Positions 214-8,961 of a stretch of DNA of 10,558 bases are shown here, piece by piece. This DNA comes from Chloroflexota bacterium (lineage in GTDB: Bacteria > Chloroflexota > Anaerolineae > Anaerolineales > Villigracilaceae): assembly GCA_021796155.1 (NCBI GenBank), contig JAJYOO010000052.1:1-10558 (forward strand), read 5' to 3'. Position 1 is the first letter of the stretch. Each line of letters starts with the position of its first letter. Position numbers and translations under genes: made by a program. Under the pieces are notes generated by a model, which saw only the letters and a list, made by a program, of their open reading frames with translations, had not been told where the DNA came from and did not search any database.

Positions 214-230
214 TTTTATAGATCGTTGTC

Positions 231-300
231 AGGTTGGAAAGTTAAACGAAGAAGGTTGAGAACGCATCAAGCGGCTCTCAACCTTCAAACTTTTAAACCT
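231..300. terminator. Stem-loop between convergent genes, possible bidirectional terminator
   Basis: A perfect 11-bp inverted repeat (GAAGGTTGAGA at 251-261, TCTCAACCTTC at 276-286, 14-nt loop) is extended by imperfect outer arms (AGGTTGGAAAGT at 231-242 against ACTTTTAAACCT at 289-300). It lies between the stop of the UPF0316 gene and the stop of the converging aminopeptidase gene, where a two-way terminator would be expected. There is no clean U-run on either side, so termination is inferred from position. The arms resemble the AACCTTCAAA/TTGGAAAG repeats inside two downstream genes, so this could simply be a repeat copy. Confidence 0.4.
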
Positions 301-310
301 TGAACTTTGA

Positions 311-2134: not shown

Positions 2135-4306
2135 ATGAAACAGCTTCTTCAAAACATGAAAAATGGCAAAACAGTCGTCGAGGATGTTCCGATCCCAACG
2201 CCGCGGACGGGGATGGCGCTCGTCAAAACGGCGGCCAGCCTCGTGTCCGCGGGAACCGAGCGGATGGTCGTCGAGTTCGCGGAAAAAAGTTTGGTTGGCA
2301 AAGCGCGCTCACGCCCCGATCTCGTAAAGCAGGTCCTCGATAAAGCGCGCCGCGAAGGAATTGCGCCAACGGTTCAAGCCGCGTTCAATCGCCTCGACCA
2401 GCCGATGGCGCTCGGTTATTCCTCGGCGGGGACGATCGCGACGCTCGGCGCGAATATGTCCGGCTTCAAGGTTGGGCAGCGTGTGGCGTGCGCGGGCGGC
2501 GGCTATGCGGTTCACGCGGAATATGCGGTTGTGCCGCGCAATCTTTTGACGCCGCTTCCAAAAAATGTTGACTTTGAATCTGCAGCCTTCGCCACGCTCG
2601 GCGCGATTGCCATGCACGGATTTCGACTCGCCGAGCCGCAAGTGGGCGAGCGCGTTGCTATCGTTGGTTTGGGTTTATTGGGATTGTTGGCGATTCAGAT
2701 CGCGTCCGCGGCGGGATGCAGCGTTCTGGGCATTGACATTGACCCGAAGCGCGTTGCCCTCGCTTCGTCACTTGGACGCTTCGACAGCGCTCAGCGCGGG
2801 CTTGAAGCAGTCCGCCGCTCAAAGGCCGTTGACTCGTCTGCGGCTTTCACCGCCAACCGCGGCTTCGACGTTGTTCTCATCTGCGCTGATACTTCATCCA
2901 ACGATCCGGTTGAACTCGCAGCAGTCATCGCGCGTGACCGTGCGCGCATCGTCGCCACCGGCGCAGTTGGACTCAACATTCCGCGCAAGATTTATTACGA
3001 AAAAGAATTGTCCTTCATCAACTCGCGTTCGTATGGACCCGGTCGTTACGACTCAAGTTATGAAGAAAGCGGCAACGATTATCCCCTCGGCTACGTGCGC
3101 TGGACGGAAGGCCGCAACATCGAATCCGTTGTTGAACTGATGTCGGATGGCAAGCTGAAAGTCGAGCCGCTCATCACGCATCGCTTTCCGATAGATCAAG
3201 CCGCGACTGCGTATGAAATAATTACTGGAAAGAAGAAAGAACCGTTTCTTGGCGTCTTGCTGGCTTATTCTGAATCAGTTGGAAAGCTGGAAAGTTCAAA
3301 GGTTGTCAGGTTCAACGTGCCAACGTTCAAACCTGCAACCTGCAAACTCGGTGTCCTCGGTGCTGGACTTTACGCCAATGCGACTTTATTGCCAGCCATC
3401 AAAGACATCGAAGATATTGAATTGGTTGGTATCGCCTCTTCCGGCGGACTCCACGCGCAGCATTCCGCAAAGAAATTTGGCTTTGCGTATGCTACTTCAT
3501 CCGACGACGAAATCATCAATGATCCGAACATCAACACCGCTGCCATTCTAACTCGTCACGACACGCACGCGGATTTGGTTATCAAAGCCTTGAAGGCAGG
3601 AAAGCACGTTTTCGTTGAAAAACCGCTGGCGATCAACAGTGATCAGTTATCAGCGATCAGTAAGCAGTTAGTGAAAAATGAAAACTGTTTGCTAACGGTT
3701 GGTTTTAATCGCAGGTTTGCTCCGCTTGCTCAACTACTTTCTACTTTTTACCAGGATCGCAAAGAACCACTTTACGCGCATTACCGTGTCAACGCTGGTT
3801 ACATTCCCTTGAATCACTGGACTCAAAACCCCGAGCAGGGCGGCGGACGAATCATCGGCGAAGCCTGTCACTTCATTGATTTCATTACATTTCTCGTCGG
3901 TGCGCCGCCTGTCAGCGTGACGGCTCATGCGTTGCCTGATAACGGCAAATATCGCGAAGACAATGTCTCGATGACCTTCACATTCCCCGACGGCTCGATG
4001 GGCGTTGTGGACTATCTCGCCAACGGCGACAAGTCTTTCCCAAAGGAGCGCGTCGAAGTTTTTTGCGGCGGCAAGATCGCGGTGCTGGATGATTTCCGTG
4101 CGTTGGAATTGATAGAAGATGGAAAGAAGAAAGAAATAAGAGGCGCGCAGGATAAAGGCTGGAAGAATGAAATGCTCGCCTTTGCCAAAGCCATCCGCGA
4201 AGGCAGCCAGCCGCCAATTCCTTATGAGCAACTGATCGGCGTGACAAAGGCGACGTTCGCGGCGGTGGAGTCGCTGCGAAGCAGGAATGCAATTGATATT
4301 CAATAA
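2135..4306 (+). CDS. Bi-domain oxidoreductase: MDR dehydrogenase fused to Gfo/Idh/MocA
   Basis: A 723-residue cytoplasmic fusion. Residues 1-375 are a medium-chain (zinc-type alcohol) dehydrogenase module with a GroES-like start (LVSAGTER at 37-43), GYSSAGT at 94-100 and a nucleotide-binding VGLGLLG at 177-183. Residues 405-723 are a Gfo/Idh/MocA sugar oxidoreductase: Rossmann GAGLYA at 409-414, VEKP at 494-497 with the family lysine K496, FNRR at 524-527 and GEACHFID at 575-582. Such fusions are known in exopolysaccharide and O-antigen loci, where they probably oxidise or reduce a nucleotide sugar with NAD(P). The substrate cannot be read here. The inter-domain linker (about 379-404) is encoded by a palindromic repeat and residues 501-512 by a heptamer tract. 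The ATG has no Shine-Dalgarno. The next gene starts six bases after the stop. Confidence 0.9.
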   Translation: MKQLLQNMKNGKTVVEDVPIPTPRTGMALVKTAASLVSAGTERMVVEFAEKSLVGKARSRPDLVKQVLDKARREGIAPTVQAAFNRLDQPMALGYSSAGTIATLGANMSGFKVGQRVACAGGGYAVHAEYAVVPRNLLTPLPKNVDFESAAFATLGAIAMHGFRLAEPQVGERVAIVGLGLLGLLAIQIASAAGCSVLGIDIDPKRVALASSLGRFDSAQRGLEAVRRSKAVDSSAAFTANRGFDVVLICADTSSNDPVELAAVIARDRARIVATGAVGLNIPRKIYYEKELSFINSRSYGPGRYDSSYEESGNDYPLGYVRWTEGRNIESVVELMSDGKLKVEPLITHRFPIDQAATAYEIITGKKKEPFLGVLLAYSESVGKLESSKVVRFNVPTFKPATCKLGVLGAGLYANATLLPAIKDIEDIELVGIASSGGLHAQHSAKKFGFAYATSSDDEIINDPNINTAAILTRHDTHADLVIKALKAGKHVFVEKPLAINSDQLSAISKQLVKNENCLLTVGFNRRFAPLAQLLSTFYQDRKEPLYAHYRVNAGYIPLNHWTQNPEQGGGRIIGEACHFIDFITFLVGAPPVSVTAHALPDNGKYREDNVSMTFTFPDGSMGVVDYLANGDKSFPKERVEVFCGGKIAVLDDFRALELIEDGKKKEIRGAQDKGWKNEMLAFAKAIREGSQPPIPYEQLIGVTKATFAAVESLRSRNAIDIQ
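3269..3346. repeat. Imperfect palindromic repeat encoding the inter-domain linker
   Basis: The stretch is made of TTGGAAAG/AAGGTTG-type words on the left and CAAACCTGCAACC-type words on the right. The centre folds back: GGTTGTCAGGTTCAACGT at 3301-3318 against 3322-3340, whose complement reads GTTGCAGGTTTGAACGTT. It is read in frame as residues 379-404, exactly between the two enzyme domains. Bases 3320-3340 recur in inverted orientation at 6400-6420 with one mismatch. Confidence 0.7.
3637..3671. repeat. CAGTNAT heptamer tract, in frame within the oxidoreductase gene
   Basis: CAG occurs at 3637, 3644, 3651, 3658 and 3665, that is five units of exactly 7 bases with consensus CAGTTAT/CAGTGAT. 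The tract is read as residues 501-512 of the oxidoreductase, directly after the VEKP active-site segment. The pattern resembles short tandemly repeated heptamers described from cyanobacteria. Confidence 0.8.
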
Positions 4307-4777: not shown

Positions 4778-6742
4778 GTGCCTCGTCTCTCGCGTTTCAA
4801 CATTGCTCTTAAATTTCTTTTCCAGCTTGGCATTGAACCACTGGCGTTGAACGCGTTATACAAATTTGGATTGTGGACGGGATATTATCGAAGGACGATA
4901 CACGATAATCGAAATTCGAATATCGAATCATCGAATATCGCTTTGCTATTCTCTTTACCTGATCGTAATCACCTCTTCCAAACCTTCGGCGACGATGGTA
5001 AAGCCGCGCTCATTAAAGAAGCGGATGAGATCATCAATGGAAAGTTCCGCATGTTCGGCGGCGAATCTGTTCCGCTTCAATTGACGTTCGATCAGCCTCT
5101 TCGTCATTGGACGGAATACGAAACAAATCACTCGCTTCTTTCTTCTTTCCTCTTTCCTCATAACGATATTAAGTTTGCATGGGAACCTGCTCGCTTCGGT
5201 TGGGCTTTCACGTTGGGTCGCGCCTATCACATCACTCAAGATGAAAAATACGCCGGGGCCTTCTGGAAATATTTTGAAACATTCAACGAATCGAATCCTC
5301 CATACCTTGGCCCACATTGGATGAACGGCCAGGAAGTCGCGATTCGGATGATGGCGTTAGTTTGGTGCGCGCATATCTTTGCCAACACGCAGCACGCAAC
5401 ACGCAACACGCAGCTCATAACTTCCATCGCCCATCACGCATCCCGCATTCCACCGACCCTCATCTATGCGCGTTCGCAAAACAATAATCATCTCGTCATC
5501 GAAGCCGCCGCGCTTTATACCGCGGGAATCCTTTTCAACGAATCGAAATGGCGCGCGCTCGGATGGCGCTGGCTCAACTGGTCGTTCCAAAATCAGATCA
5601 GCGGCTACGGCGAATACATCCAGCATTCGACCAACTATCATCGTGTGATGCTGCAGGTTGCGTTGTGGGTGAACGCGATTCGGAGCGCGGACCGGAGCGC
5701 GGACTTCAGTCCGCAATGGCCGCACGCGACAACGCAGGCACTGACGCGTGCCGCGCATTGGCTGTTCTCGATGATTGATCCCGCTTCGGGCCGGACGCCG
5801 AACCTGGGTGCGAACGATGGGGCTTTGATCCTGCCCTTGAGTTCGACTCCGCTCAACGATTTCCGTCCGACGGTTCAAGCCGCGGCCCGCGCTTTTTTGC
5901 GTACAGGGCTGCCCGCCGGCACTTGGGATGAATTGTCTTTGTGGCTTGGTTTGCCTGCATCCGAACGGACTTCTGATTCCGACGCGTATTTGACTGATCA
6001 TGTGCGCGGAAAAAATTCGTGGGCGTATCTGCGCGCATCGCAATTCAAATCGCGTTTATCGCACATGGATCAGTTGCATTTTGATTTGTGGTGGCGCGGA
6101 CTCAACGTCGCGCAGGACGCGGGGACGTATCTCTATAATGCCGAGCCGCCCTGGGACAATCCGCTGGTGACGACGCGCGTGCATAATACTGTGACGGTTG
6201 ACGGCCGCGACCAGATGACGCGTGCCGGAAAATTCCTGACGCTGGATTGGGTCAATGCTTATTCAAAGTCAGAAATTTCGACAGATGAAAATGTTGTCGG
6301 CCAAATCAAAGCCTATCACAACGGTTATCGCGGCGTCCGCCATGAACGGACAGTCACGGTTTATCGTGATGAAAGATGGGTCATTGAAGATGGTTTGAAG
6401 GTTACAGGTTTGAACGTTGGAAAGTTGAGGAAGTTTCGGCTTCATTGGCTTCTATTAGATGGGGAATGGAAAATAGGGAATGGAGAATGGGGAGTGGGGA
6501 TTCACGTAAAGTCTTCTTTTGGCTGGATTACCCTGAGAGTCGGTCTTGAACCTTCCAACCTGCAACTTGTAACTTCTCTCGTCCGTGCTGGCGAATTGAT
6601 TTACGGTCAGCGAGATGTTTTGCCTTTTGAAGGCTGGGCCTCGCCGGCTTACGGAGTGAAAGTCCCTGCGTTATCATTGGCGGTCGAAGTGACTCCTTCG
6701 AAATCCGTCACGTTCACAAGTGAATTTATCTTTCCGAAGTAA
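4778..6742 (+). CDS. Heparinase II/III-family polysaccharide lyase
   Basis: A 654-residue protein of the heparinase II/III (alginate lyase) family, which cleaves uronic-acid polysaccharides by beta-elimination. The alpha-toroid part (about 105-375) holds NGQEVAIR (183-190), SQNNNHLVIEAAAL (233-246, with the family Asn and His), GEYIQHSTNYHR (278-289, candidate catalytic tyrosine) and LGANDGA (343-349). The beta-sandwich part (about 410-640) holds SHMDQLHFDLWWRG (428-441), DAGTYLY (447-453) and RVHNTVTVDGRDQ (467-479), whose histidines suit metal or substrate binding. No clear signal peptide is seen, so the place of action is open. Start: GTG with AGGA seven bases upstream. Its place between an oxidoreductase and a glycosyltransferase suggests trimming or modifying the polymer made by the locus. 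The gene is riddled with in-frame repeats (residues 37-55, 203-213, 302-312, 540-553, 561-574, 590-599), all away from the catalytic motifs. Confidence 0.88.
   Translation: MPRLSRFNIALKFLFQLGIEPLALNALYKFGLWTGYYRRTIHDNRNSNIESSNIALLFSLPDRNHLFQTFGDDGKAALIKEADEIINGKFRMFGGESVPLQLTFDQPLRHWTEYETNHSLLSSFLFPHNDIKFAWEPARFGWAFTLGRAYHITQDEKYAGAFWKYFETFNESNPPYLGPHWMNGQEVAIRMMALVWCAHIFANTQHATRNTQLITSIAHHASRIPPTLIYARSQNNNHLVIEAAALYTAGILFNESKWRALGWRWLNWSFQNQISGYGEYIQHSTNYHRVMLQVALWVNAIRSADRSADFSPQWPHATTQALTRAAHWLFSMIDPASGRTPNLGANDGALILPLSSTPLNDFRPTVQAAARAFLRTGLPAGTWDELSLWLGLPASERTSDSDAYLTDHVRGKNSWAYLRASQFKSRLSHMDQLHFDLWWRGLNVAQDAGTYLYNAEPPWDNPLVTTRVHNTVTVDGRDQMTRAGKFLTLDWVNAYSKSEISTDENVVGQIKAYHNGYRGVRHERTVTVYRDERWVIEDGLKVTGLNVGKLRKFRLHWLLLDGEWKIGNGEWGVGIHVKSSFGWITLRVGLEPSNLQLVTSLVRAGELIYGQRDVLPFEGWASPAYGVKVPALSLAVEVTPSKSVTFTSEFIFPK
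4886..4941. repeat. NNNCGAN heptamer tract in the lyase gene
   Basis: CGA recurs at 4889, 4896, 4903, 4910, 4917 and 4924, six times at exactly 7 bases, then at 4932 after a one-base slip, with CGC at 4939. The best unit is TATCGAA/ATTCGAA. It is read as residues 37-55, rich in Arg, Asn, Ser and Ile, between the N-terminal helices and the rest of the lyase. Confidence 0.8.
5384..5446. repeat. AACACGC heptamer tracts in the lyase gene
   Basis: CACGC occurs at 5386, 5393, 5400 and 5407, giving four AACACGC-type units of 7 bases from 5384 to 5411. A second short pair follows, ATCACGC at 5433 and ATCCCGC at 5440. They are read in frame as residues 203-212 (NTQHATRNTQ) and 219-223. Confidence 0.8.
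5681..5714. repeat. 12-bp tandem repeat plus palindrome in the lyase gene
   Basis: CGGAGCGCGGAC is present twice back to back (5681-5692 and 5693-5704). The second copy runs into the palindrome GCGGACT-TC-AGTCCGC (5699-5714). Read in frame as RSADRSADFSP (about residues 302-312). The GGAGCGCGGACTTCAGTCCGC word is a dispersed repeat I recall from other bacterial genomes. Confidence 0.75.
6397..6435. repeat. GGTT/GGAAAG repeat in the lyase gene, second copy of the linker repeat
   Basis: Bases 6400-6420 equal the reverse complement of 3320-3340 at 20 of 21 positions. The word GTT recurs at 6401, 6408, 6416, 6424 and 6433, roughly every 7-9 bases. It is read as residues 540-553 (KVTGLNVGKLRK). 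Confidence 0.7.
6458..6499. repeat. AATGGGG heptamer tract in the lyase gene
   Basis: Six uninterrupted 7-base units start at 6458, 6465, 6472, 6479, 6486 and 6493; the consensus is AATGGGG/AATGGAG. It is read in frame as residues 561-574, giving DGEWKIGNGEWGVG. This is the cleanest heptamer array in the window. Confidence 0.88.
6546..6573. repeat. NNNNAAC heptamer tract in the lyase gene
   Basis: Units TTCCAAC (6553), CTGCAAC (6560) and TTGTAAC (6567) follow TTGAACC (6546); AAC recurs at 6557, 6564 and 6571 exactly 7 bases apart. It is read as residues 590-599. The words match the right half of the repeat at 3320-3346. Confidence 0.65.
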
Positions 6743-6749
6743 TATTCGA

Positions 6750-6916
6750 ATGTCATTGCGAGTGGCGCTTTAACGTCATGCGGCAATCTCAAATAACATT
6801 CAAATGATCGTTCAAGGAGATTGCCACACTGAAAGAGCGCAGTGCTTCGTCGTGGCGCCAAGTCGAAGATCCCGCACACGCGGGGGCGTTACTCCTCATA
6901 GTATTCGCAATGACAT
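6750..6916. repeat. GTCATTGCGA-type inverted repeat element between the lyase and GT4 genes
   Basis: Perfect 12-bp terminal arms (ATGTCATTGCGA at 6750-6761, TCGCAATGACAT at 6905-6916) enclose a second perfect 9-bp pair (GGCAATCTC at 6782-6790, GAGATTGCC at 6817-6825). GTCATTGCGAG...GCAATCTC is a widespread non-coding repeat in bacterial genomes. It fills almost the whole 185-base spacer; no gene is seen in it. It ends 11 bases before the GT4 start and leaves no Shine-Dalgarno there. Confidence 0.82.
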
Positions 6917-6927
6917 AATACAAAATT

Positions 6928-8154
6928 ATGCACATCCTCATCATTCATCAAGCCTTTGCATCGCTCGACGAACCCGGCGGGACGCGTCATCATGAGTTCG
7001 CGCGCCTGCTTGCGGCTCGTGGACATCAAGTGACGGTGATCGCAAGCCCGGTGAGCTATATAACAGGGAGCCCCTCACCCCTGCACCCCTCTCCCAATGT
7101 TGGGAGAGGGGACGGGAGTGAGGGCATAACCATCCTTCGCGCTTCGGTCTATGAAGCTCATCACAAATCTTTCTTTCATCGCATCATCGCGTTTTTCTCT
7201 TTCATGCTTTCATCATTCTTTATTGGATTGAAGGTAAAAAATGTTGACCTCGTTTGGGGCACGTCGCCGCCGATCTTTCAAGGTGTGACGGCCTGGCTGT
7301 TGGCGCGGCTCAAAGGGGCGAAGTTTTTATTCGAAGTGCGCGACTTGTGGCCGCAGTTCGCAGTCGCAGTAGGTGTGCTGAAGAATCCTGTCATCATTCG
7401 CATGTCCGAATGGCTGGAGCGATTCCTGTACCGCCGCGCGGACCGGTTGATGGTCAACAGCCCGGGGTTCATCGCGCACGTAGCCCGTCGAGGGGCGAGC
7501 CGAGTCGAATTGATTCCGAATGGTGCAGACCCGTCCATGTTCGATCCGTCGAACAAAGGCGTGGACTTTCGTCAAGCACATCATCTCGAAGATAAATTCG
7601 TCGCACTCTACGCGGGCGCGCACGGGGTGTCGAACGATTTGGATGTCGTGCTTGATGCGGCGAAGCTGCTGATGGACGAAAAGAAAATCCAAATCGTTTT
7701 GCTCGGCAGCGGAAAAGAAAAACCTGCGCTGCAAAAGCGAACCGAAGAGATGAAACTTACGAATGTAACCTTCATTCCGCCTGTGCCAAAATCAGAAATG
7801 TCGAACGCGCTTGCCGCCTCGGACGCGTGCATCGCAATTTTGAAGCCGCTCGAAGAATACAAAACAACGTATCCGAACAAGGTTTTCGATTACATGGCAG
7901 CTGGACGCGCGGTGGTGCTGGCGATTGACGGCGTGATCCGCGAAGTGATCGAAACCGCGGGGTGTGGATTGTTTGTTGAGCCGGGAAATCCATCCGCAAT
8001 GGCAGACGCGATTCGCAAGCTGGCGAATGATCCGCGGAAAAGGCGCGCGATGGGATTGAACGGCCGAAAATATCTGGAGGAAAATTTCAGCCGCGTCGCG
8101 ATCGGCGAGAAACTGGTTGAATTATTGGAGGAAATGGTCAAGAAGAAAAAATGA
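6928..8154 (+). CDS. GT4-family glycosyltransferase, WbuB-like
   Basis: A 408-residue GT-B fold glycosyltransferase of family GT4, closest by motif to the WbuB-like group that adds amino sugars in O-antigen or capsule synthesis. The N-terminal domain has DEPGGTRHHEFARLLAARGHQVTVI (residues 14-38), a hydrophobic stretch at 85-102 that may touch the membrane, and FEVRDLWP (135-142), typical of this group. The C-terminal domain has the donor-binding LYAGAHGVSNDLDVVLDAA (227-245), YPNKVFDYMAAGRAVV (315-330) and the late FVEPG (349-353) with a candidate catalytic-motif glutamate E351. It acts at the inner face of the membrane on a lipid-linked sugar, by family knowledge; donor and acceptor are unknown. 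Residues 47-66 come from an in-frame palindromic repeat in a variable loop. No Shine-Dalgarno precedes the ATG; an extra promoter inside the repeat spacer is possible. Confidence 0.92.
   Translation: MHILIIHQAFASLDEPGGTRHHEFARLLAARGHQVTVIASPVSYITGSPSPLHPSPNVGRGDGSEGITILRASVYEAHHKSFFHRIIAFFSFMLSSFFIGLKVKNVDLVWGTSPPIFQGVTAWLLARLKGAKFLFEVRDLWPQFAVAVGVLKNPVIIRMSEWLERFLYRRADRLMVNSPGFIAHVARRGASRVELIPNGADPSMFDPSNKGVDFRQAHHLEDKFVALYAGAHGVSNDLDVVLDAAKLLMDEKKIQIVLLGSGKEKPALQKRTEEMKLTNVTFIPPVPKSEMSNALAASDACIAILKPLEEYKTTYPNKVFDYMAAGRAVVLAIDGVIREVIETAGCGLFVEPGNPSAMADAIRKLANDPRKRRAMGLNGRKYLEENFSRVAIGEKLVELLEEMVKKKK
7072..7124. repeat. CCCTCACCCC...GGGGTGAGGG palindromic repeat inside the GT4 gene
   Basis: A perfect 12-bp stem (CCCCTCTCCCAA at 7086-7097, TTGGGAGAGGGG at 7100-7111, 2-base loop) is enclosed by outer arms CCCTCAC (7072-7078) and GTGAGGG (7118-7124). 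This is a very common dispersed repeat of bacterial genomes. Here it is read in frame, giving the Pro/Ser/Gly-rich residues 49-65, in the loop after the second strand of the N-terminal Rossmann fold. Confidence 0.9.
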
Positions 8155-8878: not shown

Positions 8879-8961
8879 GCCCTGAGCGGAGTGGCGCTTT
8901 TTGCCACGAAGTCGAAGGGCAAGAGAAGGTTAGGCTTACTGAGCAAGGTCGAAGTGGTGAG
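8879..8961. repeat. CCCTGAGCG...GTCGAAGGG repeat pair after the nucleotidyltransferase gene
   Basis: GCCCTGAGCG (8879-8888) and GTCGAAGGGC (8911-8920) form the ends of a common dispersed repeat; between them is a small hairpin, GTGGC-7 nt-GCCAC (8891-8907). A related word, ACTGAGCAAGGTCGAAGTG, follows at 8938-8956. No gene is seen in this part. The 12-mer GAGTGGCGCTTT inside it (8889-8900) also occurs at 6760-6771. Confidence 0.7.

Follow-up and report, generated by a model that had tools for sequence, protein, structure and literature searches.

A lyase gene of a Chloroflexota bacterium (Anaerolineales, Villigracilaceae; GenBank assembly GCA_021796155.1) carries several tandem tracts of seven-nucleotide (7-nt) units with differing words, and comparison with its orthologs reveals that these period-7 tracts are a DNA-level feature, which occupies the same homologous loops throughout, while the words change from one genome to the next. 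We tentatively interpret them, at a probability of about 45%, as recurrent and mostly length-neutral replication errors in Anaerolineales, in which misalignment by 7 nt and template switching to an inverted arm would generate patches that are tolerated in protein loops. The gene lies at positions 4778 to 6742 of the 10,558-nt stretch of contig JAJYOO010000052.1 that was analyzed (the window). In the source genome (G000; 4.08 Mb in 63 contigs) the window corresponds to positions 109376-119933 of contig C41 (266,621 bp), from which it differs at 13 of 10,558 positions; none of the first ten is inside the lyase gene, and the remaining three follow them close to the end of the window.

The reading frame is uninterrupted, as the original prediction had stated, and its identification as a heparinase II/III-type lyase is borne out by matches to PF16889 in the N-terminal part (70.6 bits; cut-off 22) and PF07940 in the C-terminal part (86.2 bits; cut-off 24), both above the curated cut-offs. 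In our homolog set, comprising the best 120 of 3608 protein matches, the homologs with names are from Anaerolineales or Chloroflexi and not from cyanobacteria, and the 119 proteins other than that of G000 range from 579 to 692 amino acids. Tracts in the window were scored by matches between bases seven positions apart (lag 7), and the best 21-nt window of each was compared with 2000 dinucleotide shuffles. The gene and its tracts are:

4778..6742, plus strand: heparinase II/III-type lyase gene that hosts the tracts; open frame of 654 amino acids
4889..4931, plus strand: TCGAATA-type tract in loop A, with a foldback; 15/21 at lag 7, DNA fold z -3.39 (4884-4945)
5127..5167, plus strand: TTCTTTC-type tract in loop B; 18/21; absent from the original list, with other words here in other genomes
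5378..5459, plus strand: two adjoining tracts at site C, AACACGC-type and then ATCACGC-type; 19/21 and 17/21
5681..5714, plus strand: 12-bp duplication with an inverted-repeat end at site D; 12-bp unit found twice by Tandem Repeats Finder, best lag 12
6397..6440, plus strand: weak 7/8-periodic tract of GGTTTGAA type at site F; inverted partner of 6546-6584 (inverted match 12)
6458..6507, plus strand: AATGGGG-type tract at site G; 17/21; same length as in relatives
6545..6584, plus strand: AACCTGC-type tract at site H; 15/21; different words at loop H elsewhere

Six tracts had been listed originally, and a period of 7 stands at four of these: 4886-4941 (29/49 matches at lag 7, the best window being reached by 14 of 2000 shuffles); 5384-5446 (40/56; 0/2000), which resolves into two adjacent arrays; 6458-6499 (25/35; 2/2000), where lag 14 scores slightly above lag 7 (0.79 versus 0.71); and 6546-6573 (14/21; 0/2000). 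It does not stand at the other two: the segment 5681-5714 is a true insertion and no heptamer tract, loop D having 16 amino acids here versus a median of 8 in tract-free genomes, and 6397-6435 fits lag 8 best (0.55), with just 13/32 matches at lag 7. Relative to the close relatives compared, about 8 residues are clearly extra at 5681, and a further 3 or so, which the ortholog L002 has as well, at 6397.

The DNA-level nature of the signal is apparent in a set of 28 orthologous lyase genes (from 30 loci), in which tracts were called at a threshold of at least 15/21 at lag 7. These genes hold 57 such tracts, versus 4.1 after within-gene shuffling of synonymous codons (maximum 6 in 20 runs); shuffling of codon order leaves 0.5, and lags 6 and 8 yield 4 and 6 tracts in the unshuffled genes. 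With the amino acids fixed, 51 of the 57 tracts individually reach p<0.01, though these statistics lean high because the tracts were picked for high score and some are inherited in common among related genomes.

Beyond the lyase, we counted lag-7 loci, defined as 21-nt windows with at least 16 matches. Contig C41 contains 24 lag-7 loci versus a mean of 0.4 in five shuffles that preserve local dinucleotides; on the same contig lags 6, 8 and 9 give 4, 3 and 2 loci, lags 12 and 15 give 6 and 7, and lag 14 gives 16. In a 624-kb sample of G000, lag 7 gives 37 loci and lag 14 gives 22, the highest count at a lag that is not a multiple of 7 being 17, at lag 12; lags 6 and 8 give 9 and 10. The samples of two other genomes have 49, 1 and 7 loci (G056, 415 kb) and 23, 6 and 1 loci (G005, 378 kb) at lags 7, 6 and 8, respectively. 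Arrays also occur outside crude open reading frames (ORFs; 13 of the 42 arrays on C41). The signal is uneven: 9 of 26 stretches, each of 20 kb and drawn from 24 other genomes, lack any lag-7 locus, and the lyase gene is a hot spot, with six tracts in 1.965 kb versus 0.109 per kb in the G000 sample. The richest 5-kb bin lies at or beside this gene in four of five contigs, another bin being richer in G005. Since the period is genome-wide and survives codon-preserving shuffles, a process that makes heptamers, as first proposed from the shared period and unrelated words, is the right frame; the accompanying dismissal of word spread fares less well, as words recur beyond permuted expectation. As separate observations, there is a minor period-8 signal (10 loci in the 624-kb G000 sample and 10 in a family sample), and at L060 5866-5926 (contig C10 of G000) AAAACGC and AAGAGGC heptamers alternate, resulting in a 14-mer of two words.

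The tracts of the 28 lyase genes fall at about eight homologous places (residues ~45-55, 122-128, 207-222, 303-315, 394-403, 548, 569-573 and 592-596 of L001), and the same homologous loops hold differing words between genomes. At the last of these places, the word is AACCTGC in G000, AACTTTC in L023, AATTCCC in L021, CTCTCTA-like in L011, L013 and L014, TTACGAA-like in L015 and CAGTNGT-like in L022. Alignment columns under at least four tracts have a conservation of 0.41 versus 0.68 for columns under none, which, taking conservation as the measure, agrees with the claim that the tracts lie away from the catalytic motifs; the claim gives way at site C, where the second array (5418-5459) overlies codons of the conserved HASRIPP motif. 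Arrays at this site cover the conserved H-A-x-R-I-P stretch, also where the loop has its standard length of 23 amino acids, and the changes fall on free residues and synonymous positions.

We compared loop lengths between genomes with a tract (at least 14/21) and without one (at most 11/21), intermediate genomes being excluded. The medians are equal at A (20 and 20 amino acids), B (14 and 14), C (23 and 23) and G (19 and 19). In the homolog set loop B has 14 amino acids in 84 of 120 proteins, G has 19 in 109 of 120, and C has 23 in 88 of 120, the 21-residue form of G000 being present in 16 of 120. These equal or narrow lengths, together with the overlay at site C, imply that the tracts do not represent the roughly 80 added residues originally proposed, and the size range of the homologs likewise speaks against that figure. 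Similarly, the expectation that each tract would coincide with an insertion relative to relatives fails at A, B, C and G; insertion of whole tracts is rejected as the general mode on the lengths at these four loops, and is retained for D and E, where real insertions are seen. Tract-bearing loops are somewhat longer at F (16.5 versus 13 amino acids, with a tract group of only two genomes) and at H (18 versus 15). Two B loops have 21 amino acids, three units above the usual, indicating that in-frame change of unit number occurs as well. A different short repeat, of CCCTGAGCNNNTCGAAGGG type, was noticed in L002, in the homologs P0125, P0127, P0131, P0163 and P0165 and at 8879-8922 of the window; in L002 it forms an in-frame insertion at site C of the lyase, where G000 has a heptamer tract.

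A further aspect of the arrays is their occurrence as inverted arms. With a partner defined by a score of at least 11 within 300 bp, 48 of 158 arrays have an inverted partner, versus 18 with a direct partner and 7 with permuted words. Among 230 arrays there are 42 unique inverted pairs within 120 bp, in which G outnumbers C on the left arm in 30 cases, C outnumbers G in 10, and 2 are ties; four of the 10 G-poor left arms are a CCCCTC-type element, and the G polarity of the left arm is no more than suggestive. Within the lyase gene, two sites about 55 bp apart bear reverse-complementary words that change in concert between genomes; pairing of G with H is seen in L008, L011, L013, L014 and L015, and the word differs from one of these genes to another. 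Across the 28 genomes, with kinship uncorrected, the reverse-complement score for G-H is 8.64 within the same genome versus 6.66 across genomes (direct sense, 6.18 versus 5.92), that for B-G is 8.00 versus 6.65 (direct sense, 5.50 versus 5.55), and that for A-H is 8.00 versus 6.34; B-H are alike in the direct sense (7.71 versus 6.21). The preponderance of inverted over direct partners and the co-variation of G and H are what is expected of quasipalindromes, i.e. imperfect inverted arms becoming alike.

We accordingly offer a model whose steps are conjectural: the nascent strand would misalign by 7 nt or switch template to a nearby inverted arm, copy some bases there and then return, and the patch would end up heptameric or as the reverse complement of another patch. 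Protein function would filter the outcome, leaving tracts at synonymous positions and in loops and linkers, and words would turn over between species. It is from the patterns in the sequences that we infer replicative template switches to be the events in question, and no function is required for the tracts. Passages in PMC4679880 and PMC4692102 cite an earlier proposal that ties the 7-nt step to how much DNA the polymerase contacts. Units 14 nt apart resemble each other as closely as units 7 nt apart (0.682 at lag 14 in arrays chosen on lag 7, and 0.686 at lag 7 in arrays chosen on lag 14), with similarity dropping to 0.62 and 0.55 at 21 and 28, and transitions constitute 0.465 of the unit differences, versus 0.332 expected from composition. 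The unit likeness and the transition share fit arrays that were homogeneous at birth and decayed later, and growth by copying a neighboring unit with errors is unsupported given the equal likeness at 7 and 14. Where homologous tracts differ from each other, the base in question still agrees with its lag-7 neighbor in the same tract at 0.51-0.56. A lag-7 excess at positions differing between the orthologs L001 and L002 (0.311; other lags 0.233 to 0.298) was dropped as proof, because tract regions by themselves could produce such an excess.

Several observations weigh against replication errors of this kind. In G000 the count at lag 12 is itself fairly high (17 loci in 624 kb), and in the contigs of this genome besides C41 (358 kb) lag 12 gives 11 loci and lag 7 gives 13 (2.0 in shuffles); hence 7 is not the sole favored period. 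Slippage should also yield steps of 6 and 8, yet the rise at lag 8 is weak (10 loci in G000) and that at lag 6 is slight at best. The insertions at D (17 versus 8 amino acids) and E (63 versus 42), with tract groups of only two and three genomes, are not length-neutral. The excess of inverted matches in the 28 lyase genes is moderate (67 versus 43 in one synonymous shuffle); A-H is raised in the direct sense too (7.39 versus 6.47), and the co-ordination of words reaches 1.6 kb (A-H), which is far for a foldback. Words also recur over loci and genomes, which is unexpected under purely local copying: the 68 G000 arrays include 13 identical consensus-word pairs versus 4.2 permuted (maximum 9 in 60 permutations), and G000 has 32 identical word pairs with genomes outside its genus versus 6.7 permuted (maximum 15), with no clear excess of words at a distance of at most 2 within G000 (476 versus 442.6; stronger arrays, 113 versus 120.6). 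Finally, the nearest pair of orthologs is 81% identical, and no formation event was observed.

A more sweeping proposal, which we consider rather unlikely, is an order-wide "heptamer writer" of Chloroflexota, a polymerase-based and length-preserving activity with a fixed 7-nt step that would use a vocabulary specific to each genome to overwrite relaxed DNA, synonymous positions of conserved genes among it, and would place the reverse complement at partner sites. Were it true, protein loops would evolve through word replacement and not through independent point mutations.

Another account to which we give a low probability is insertion at permissive sites, whereby short mobile or repair-born heptamer arrays, or heptamer-armed hairpins, would enter loops that tolerate them, with later deletions restoring the length. 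The recurrence of words across loci, the greater lengths of D and E and to some extent of F and H, the additional 7 amino acids in two B loops, and the acceptance of other short repeats by the same loops (L002 at site C; 5681-5714 at site D) all favor such a process, but it sits poorly with medians that do not differ between tract-bearing and tract-free loops at A, B, C and G, and at site C, where arrays lie over conserved residues in a loop of standard length, insertion followed by deletion would need to rebuild those residues.

A trans-acting templated writer, for example a telomerase-like reverse transcriptase, that would extend DNA breaks with tandem copies of a word specific to the genome before the breaks are joined appears improbable. 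It comes under consideration since, according to passages in PMC12632851, the antiviral reverse transcriptase DRT10 uses a noncoding RNA to produce tandem repeats whose word varies, although the enzyme studied in detail there adds 9 nt. The G-rich polarity of the left arms in 30 of the 42 inverted pairs (10 being G-poorer) would suit a templated word, as would the whole-genome count of three consecutive AACCTTC units, with 192 matches in G043 versus 5 in its genus mate G056 and presence in 40 of 61 genomes, a count in which matches overlap and backwards-read controls are frequent in G039, G045, G052 and G056; in another count the control was frequent in G007, G019 and G041. An exact 24-mer is spread over many phyla, with at least 120 stretches in GTDB, including, among the matches listed, Moorena, Roseiflexus, Verrucomicrobia, Bacteroidetes and Tepidiforma. 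Genome dialects, on the other hand, are weak in the sampled arrays, and only the single word counted over whole genomes shows a strong one: word pairs at a distance of at most 1 have a frequency of 0.051 within genomes versus 0.0395 between them (reached by 1 of 100 label shuffles), that within G000 (0.047) being below that between G000 and G004 (0.069, which may include orthologous arrays), and, over four genomes, lyase tracts resemble the other arrays of their own genome in 14 of 21 cases (with means of 10.9 and 9.7; p 0.019). Moreover, the reverse transcriptase profile RVT_1 is detected in 33 of 61 genomes, including the tract-rich G043, G041 and G019, and went undetected at E<=0.001, a cut-off that divergent reverse transcriptases could escape, in G000, G056 and G034, the last of which has 137 matches of one word. 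This distribution suggests that a reverse transcriptase neither tracks the tracts nor is required for them, and a DRT10-like source is disfavored.

We hold it equally improbable that the inverted arms are kept as functional DNA or RNA hairpins, such as intergenic terminators or regulatory folds within genes. Several stretches of the window do fold better as DNA than their shuffles (z -3.4 to -4.6), and G and H co-vary across genomes; nevertheless, the 201-nt lyase region that includes the pairing of 6397-6440 with 6546-6584 folds no better than shuffles (z 0.27), nor does 5380-5450 as DNA (z 1.64), and words and sites come and go between relatives. Arm mismatches in 13 pairs, chosen by eye out of 67, have no wobble excess (10 G-T versus 22 A-C), and hence do not suggest that RNA pairing is being preserved; a messenger RNA hairpin under selection is rejected on this ground and on the z of 0.27. 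Chance or peptide-level periodicity, through codon bias or repeated residues, is most improbable, given that the small lag-7 excess of synonymous over codon-order shuffles (4.1 versus 0.5), which points to a small contribution of the amino acid sequence, falls far below the 57 tracts found, and that 13 of 42 arrays on C41 lie outside crude ORFs.

Elsewhere in the window comparable features are:

225..310, no strand assigned: intergenic foldback with GGTTGAA/TTCAACC arms; 14/21; DNA fold z -4.18 (222-312)
3276..3352, plus strand: foldback of AACCTGC/GGTTGNN words in the linker between the two domains of the neighboring dehydrogenase fusion; 15/21; DNA fold z -4.09
3630..3672, plus strand: ATCAGTT-type tract within the second of the two dehydrogenase-fusion domains; 16/21; the word is the reverse complement of TAACTGA

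The linker foldback has its best overall lag at 8, and its residues are common to many homologs; in some homologs CCCTGAGCNNNTCGAAGGG-like peptides (PALSLSKG, RGPEHVEG, ALSEAEGS) occur in this linker; at about the place of 3630-3672, G004 has an ACCGCCA-type array. A gene for a 23S ribosomal RNA intervening-sequence family protein (PF05635) occupies 1638-2111, with an M29 peptidase gene on one side and the dehydrogenase fusion on the other. Between the lyase and glycosyltransferase genes (6751-6920) lies an interspersed element starting with TGTCATTGCGAG, short inverted copies of whose ends are found at C41 77323-77368 and L070 18674-18713. The glycosyltransferase ORF (6928-8154) itself includes, at 7062-7125, an in-frame CCCCTCACCCC / GGGGTGAGGGG hairpin (DNA fold z -4.62), and similar hairpins in G000 and G056 have a strand polarity opposite to that of the heptamer foldbacks. 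The G056 sample (L092-L110, L081, L091) also has near-identical long hairpins, of CCCGAAAAAAGGGTGTGCG type and of a family with CCACTGCAAAAACT ends, which are unlike the heptamer foldbacks.

The lyase gene in 28 species constitutes a natural experiment, with shared loops, differing words, constant length at several sites and inverted partners, in which overwriting can be separated from insertion, the testable signatures being new mutations in patches that follow lag 7 or an inverted arm. If overwriting is true, it would supply clustered templated substitutions that bias codon usage, models of substitution and the evolution of loops in a large lineage most of whose members are uncultured.

Bacterial heptanucleotide repeats, including several kinds per genome and the TAACTGA, GGGNATC and GGGGA(C/T)T families, are already in print, and passages in PMC4679880 and PMC4692102 present the heptamer excess without a tested mechanism. 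In the open-access literature we found nothing on heptamers exchanged at homologous loops, on their loop-specific word turnover, in-place formation or inverted co-variation, or on heptamers of Chloroflexota. A class of repeats in cyanobacteria goes by the name of short tandemly repeated repetitive sequences. The TAACTGA direct repeats of Beggiatoaceae, Cyanobacteria and Bacteroidetes are described in parts of PMC4679880 as mostly situated just upstream of start codons, with one word dominant; the tract at 3630-3672 carries that word on the other strand, but here it is one of many words and lies inside an ORF (2135-4306), not upstream of a start codon. The GGGNATC and GGGGA(C/T)T repeats of Xanthomonas and Nostoc, which the relevant passages of PMC4692102 place mainly between genes and report as under-represented on coding strands (three heptanucleotides are mentioned there for Calothrix), are comparable in being G-rich, as is the AATGGGG tract at 6458-6507 in the lyase gene, and in that length and sequence vary among relatives. 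DRT10 products share with the arrays the tandem short repeats of varying word (PMC12632851, in part), and differ in the 9-nt unit of the system studied in detail, RVT_1 being undetected in G000. In yeast, template switching homogenizes inverted arms in coding DNA, going by passages of PMC8604942, and such quasipalindrome-associated switching (see also parts of PMC7202029) likewise makes inverted arms alike, in coding DNA too and with no change of length needed; by itself, however, it yields neither a 7-nt period nor recurring words. Closest in period are the prokaryotic heptanucleotide long simple sequence repeats of Mrazek et al. 2007, for which, as related in portions of PMC4679880 and PMC4692102, a 7-nt unit is over-represented, several words occur per genome and polymerase slippage was proposed. 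G000 has the same over-representation of 7-nt tandem units, with several words in one genome; unlike those repeats, however, many of its tracts lie in coding loops and are degenerate, length-neutral and partly paired as inverted arms.

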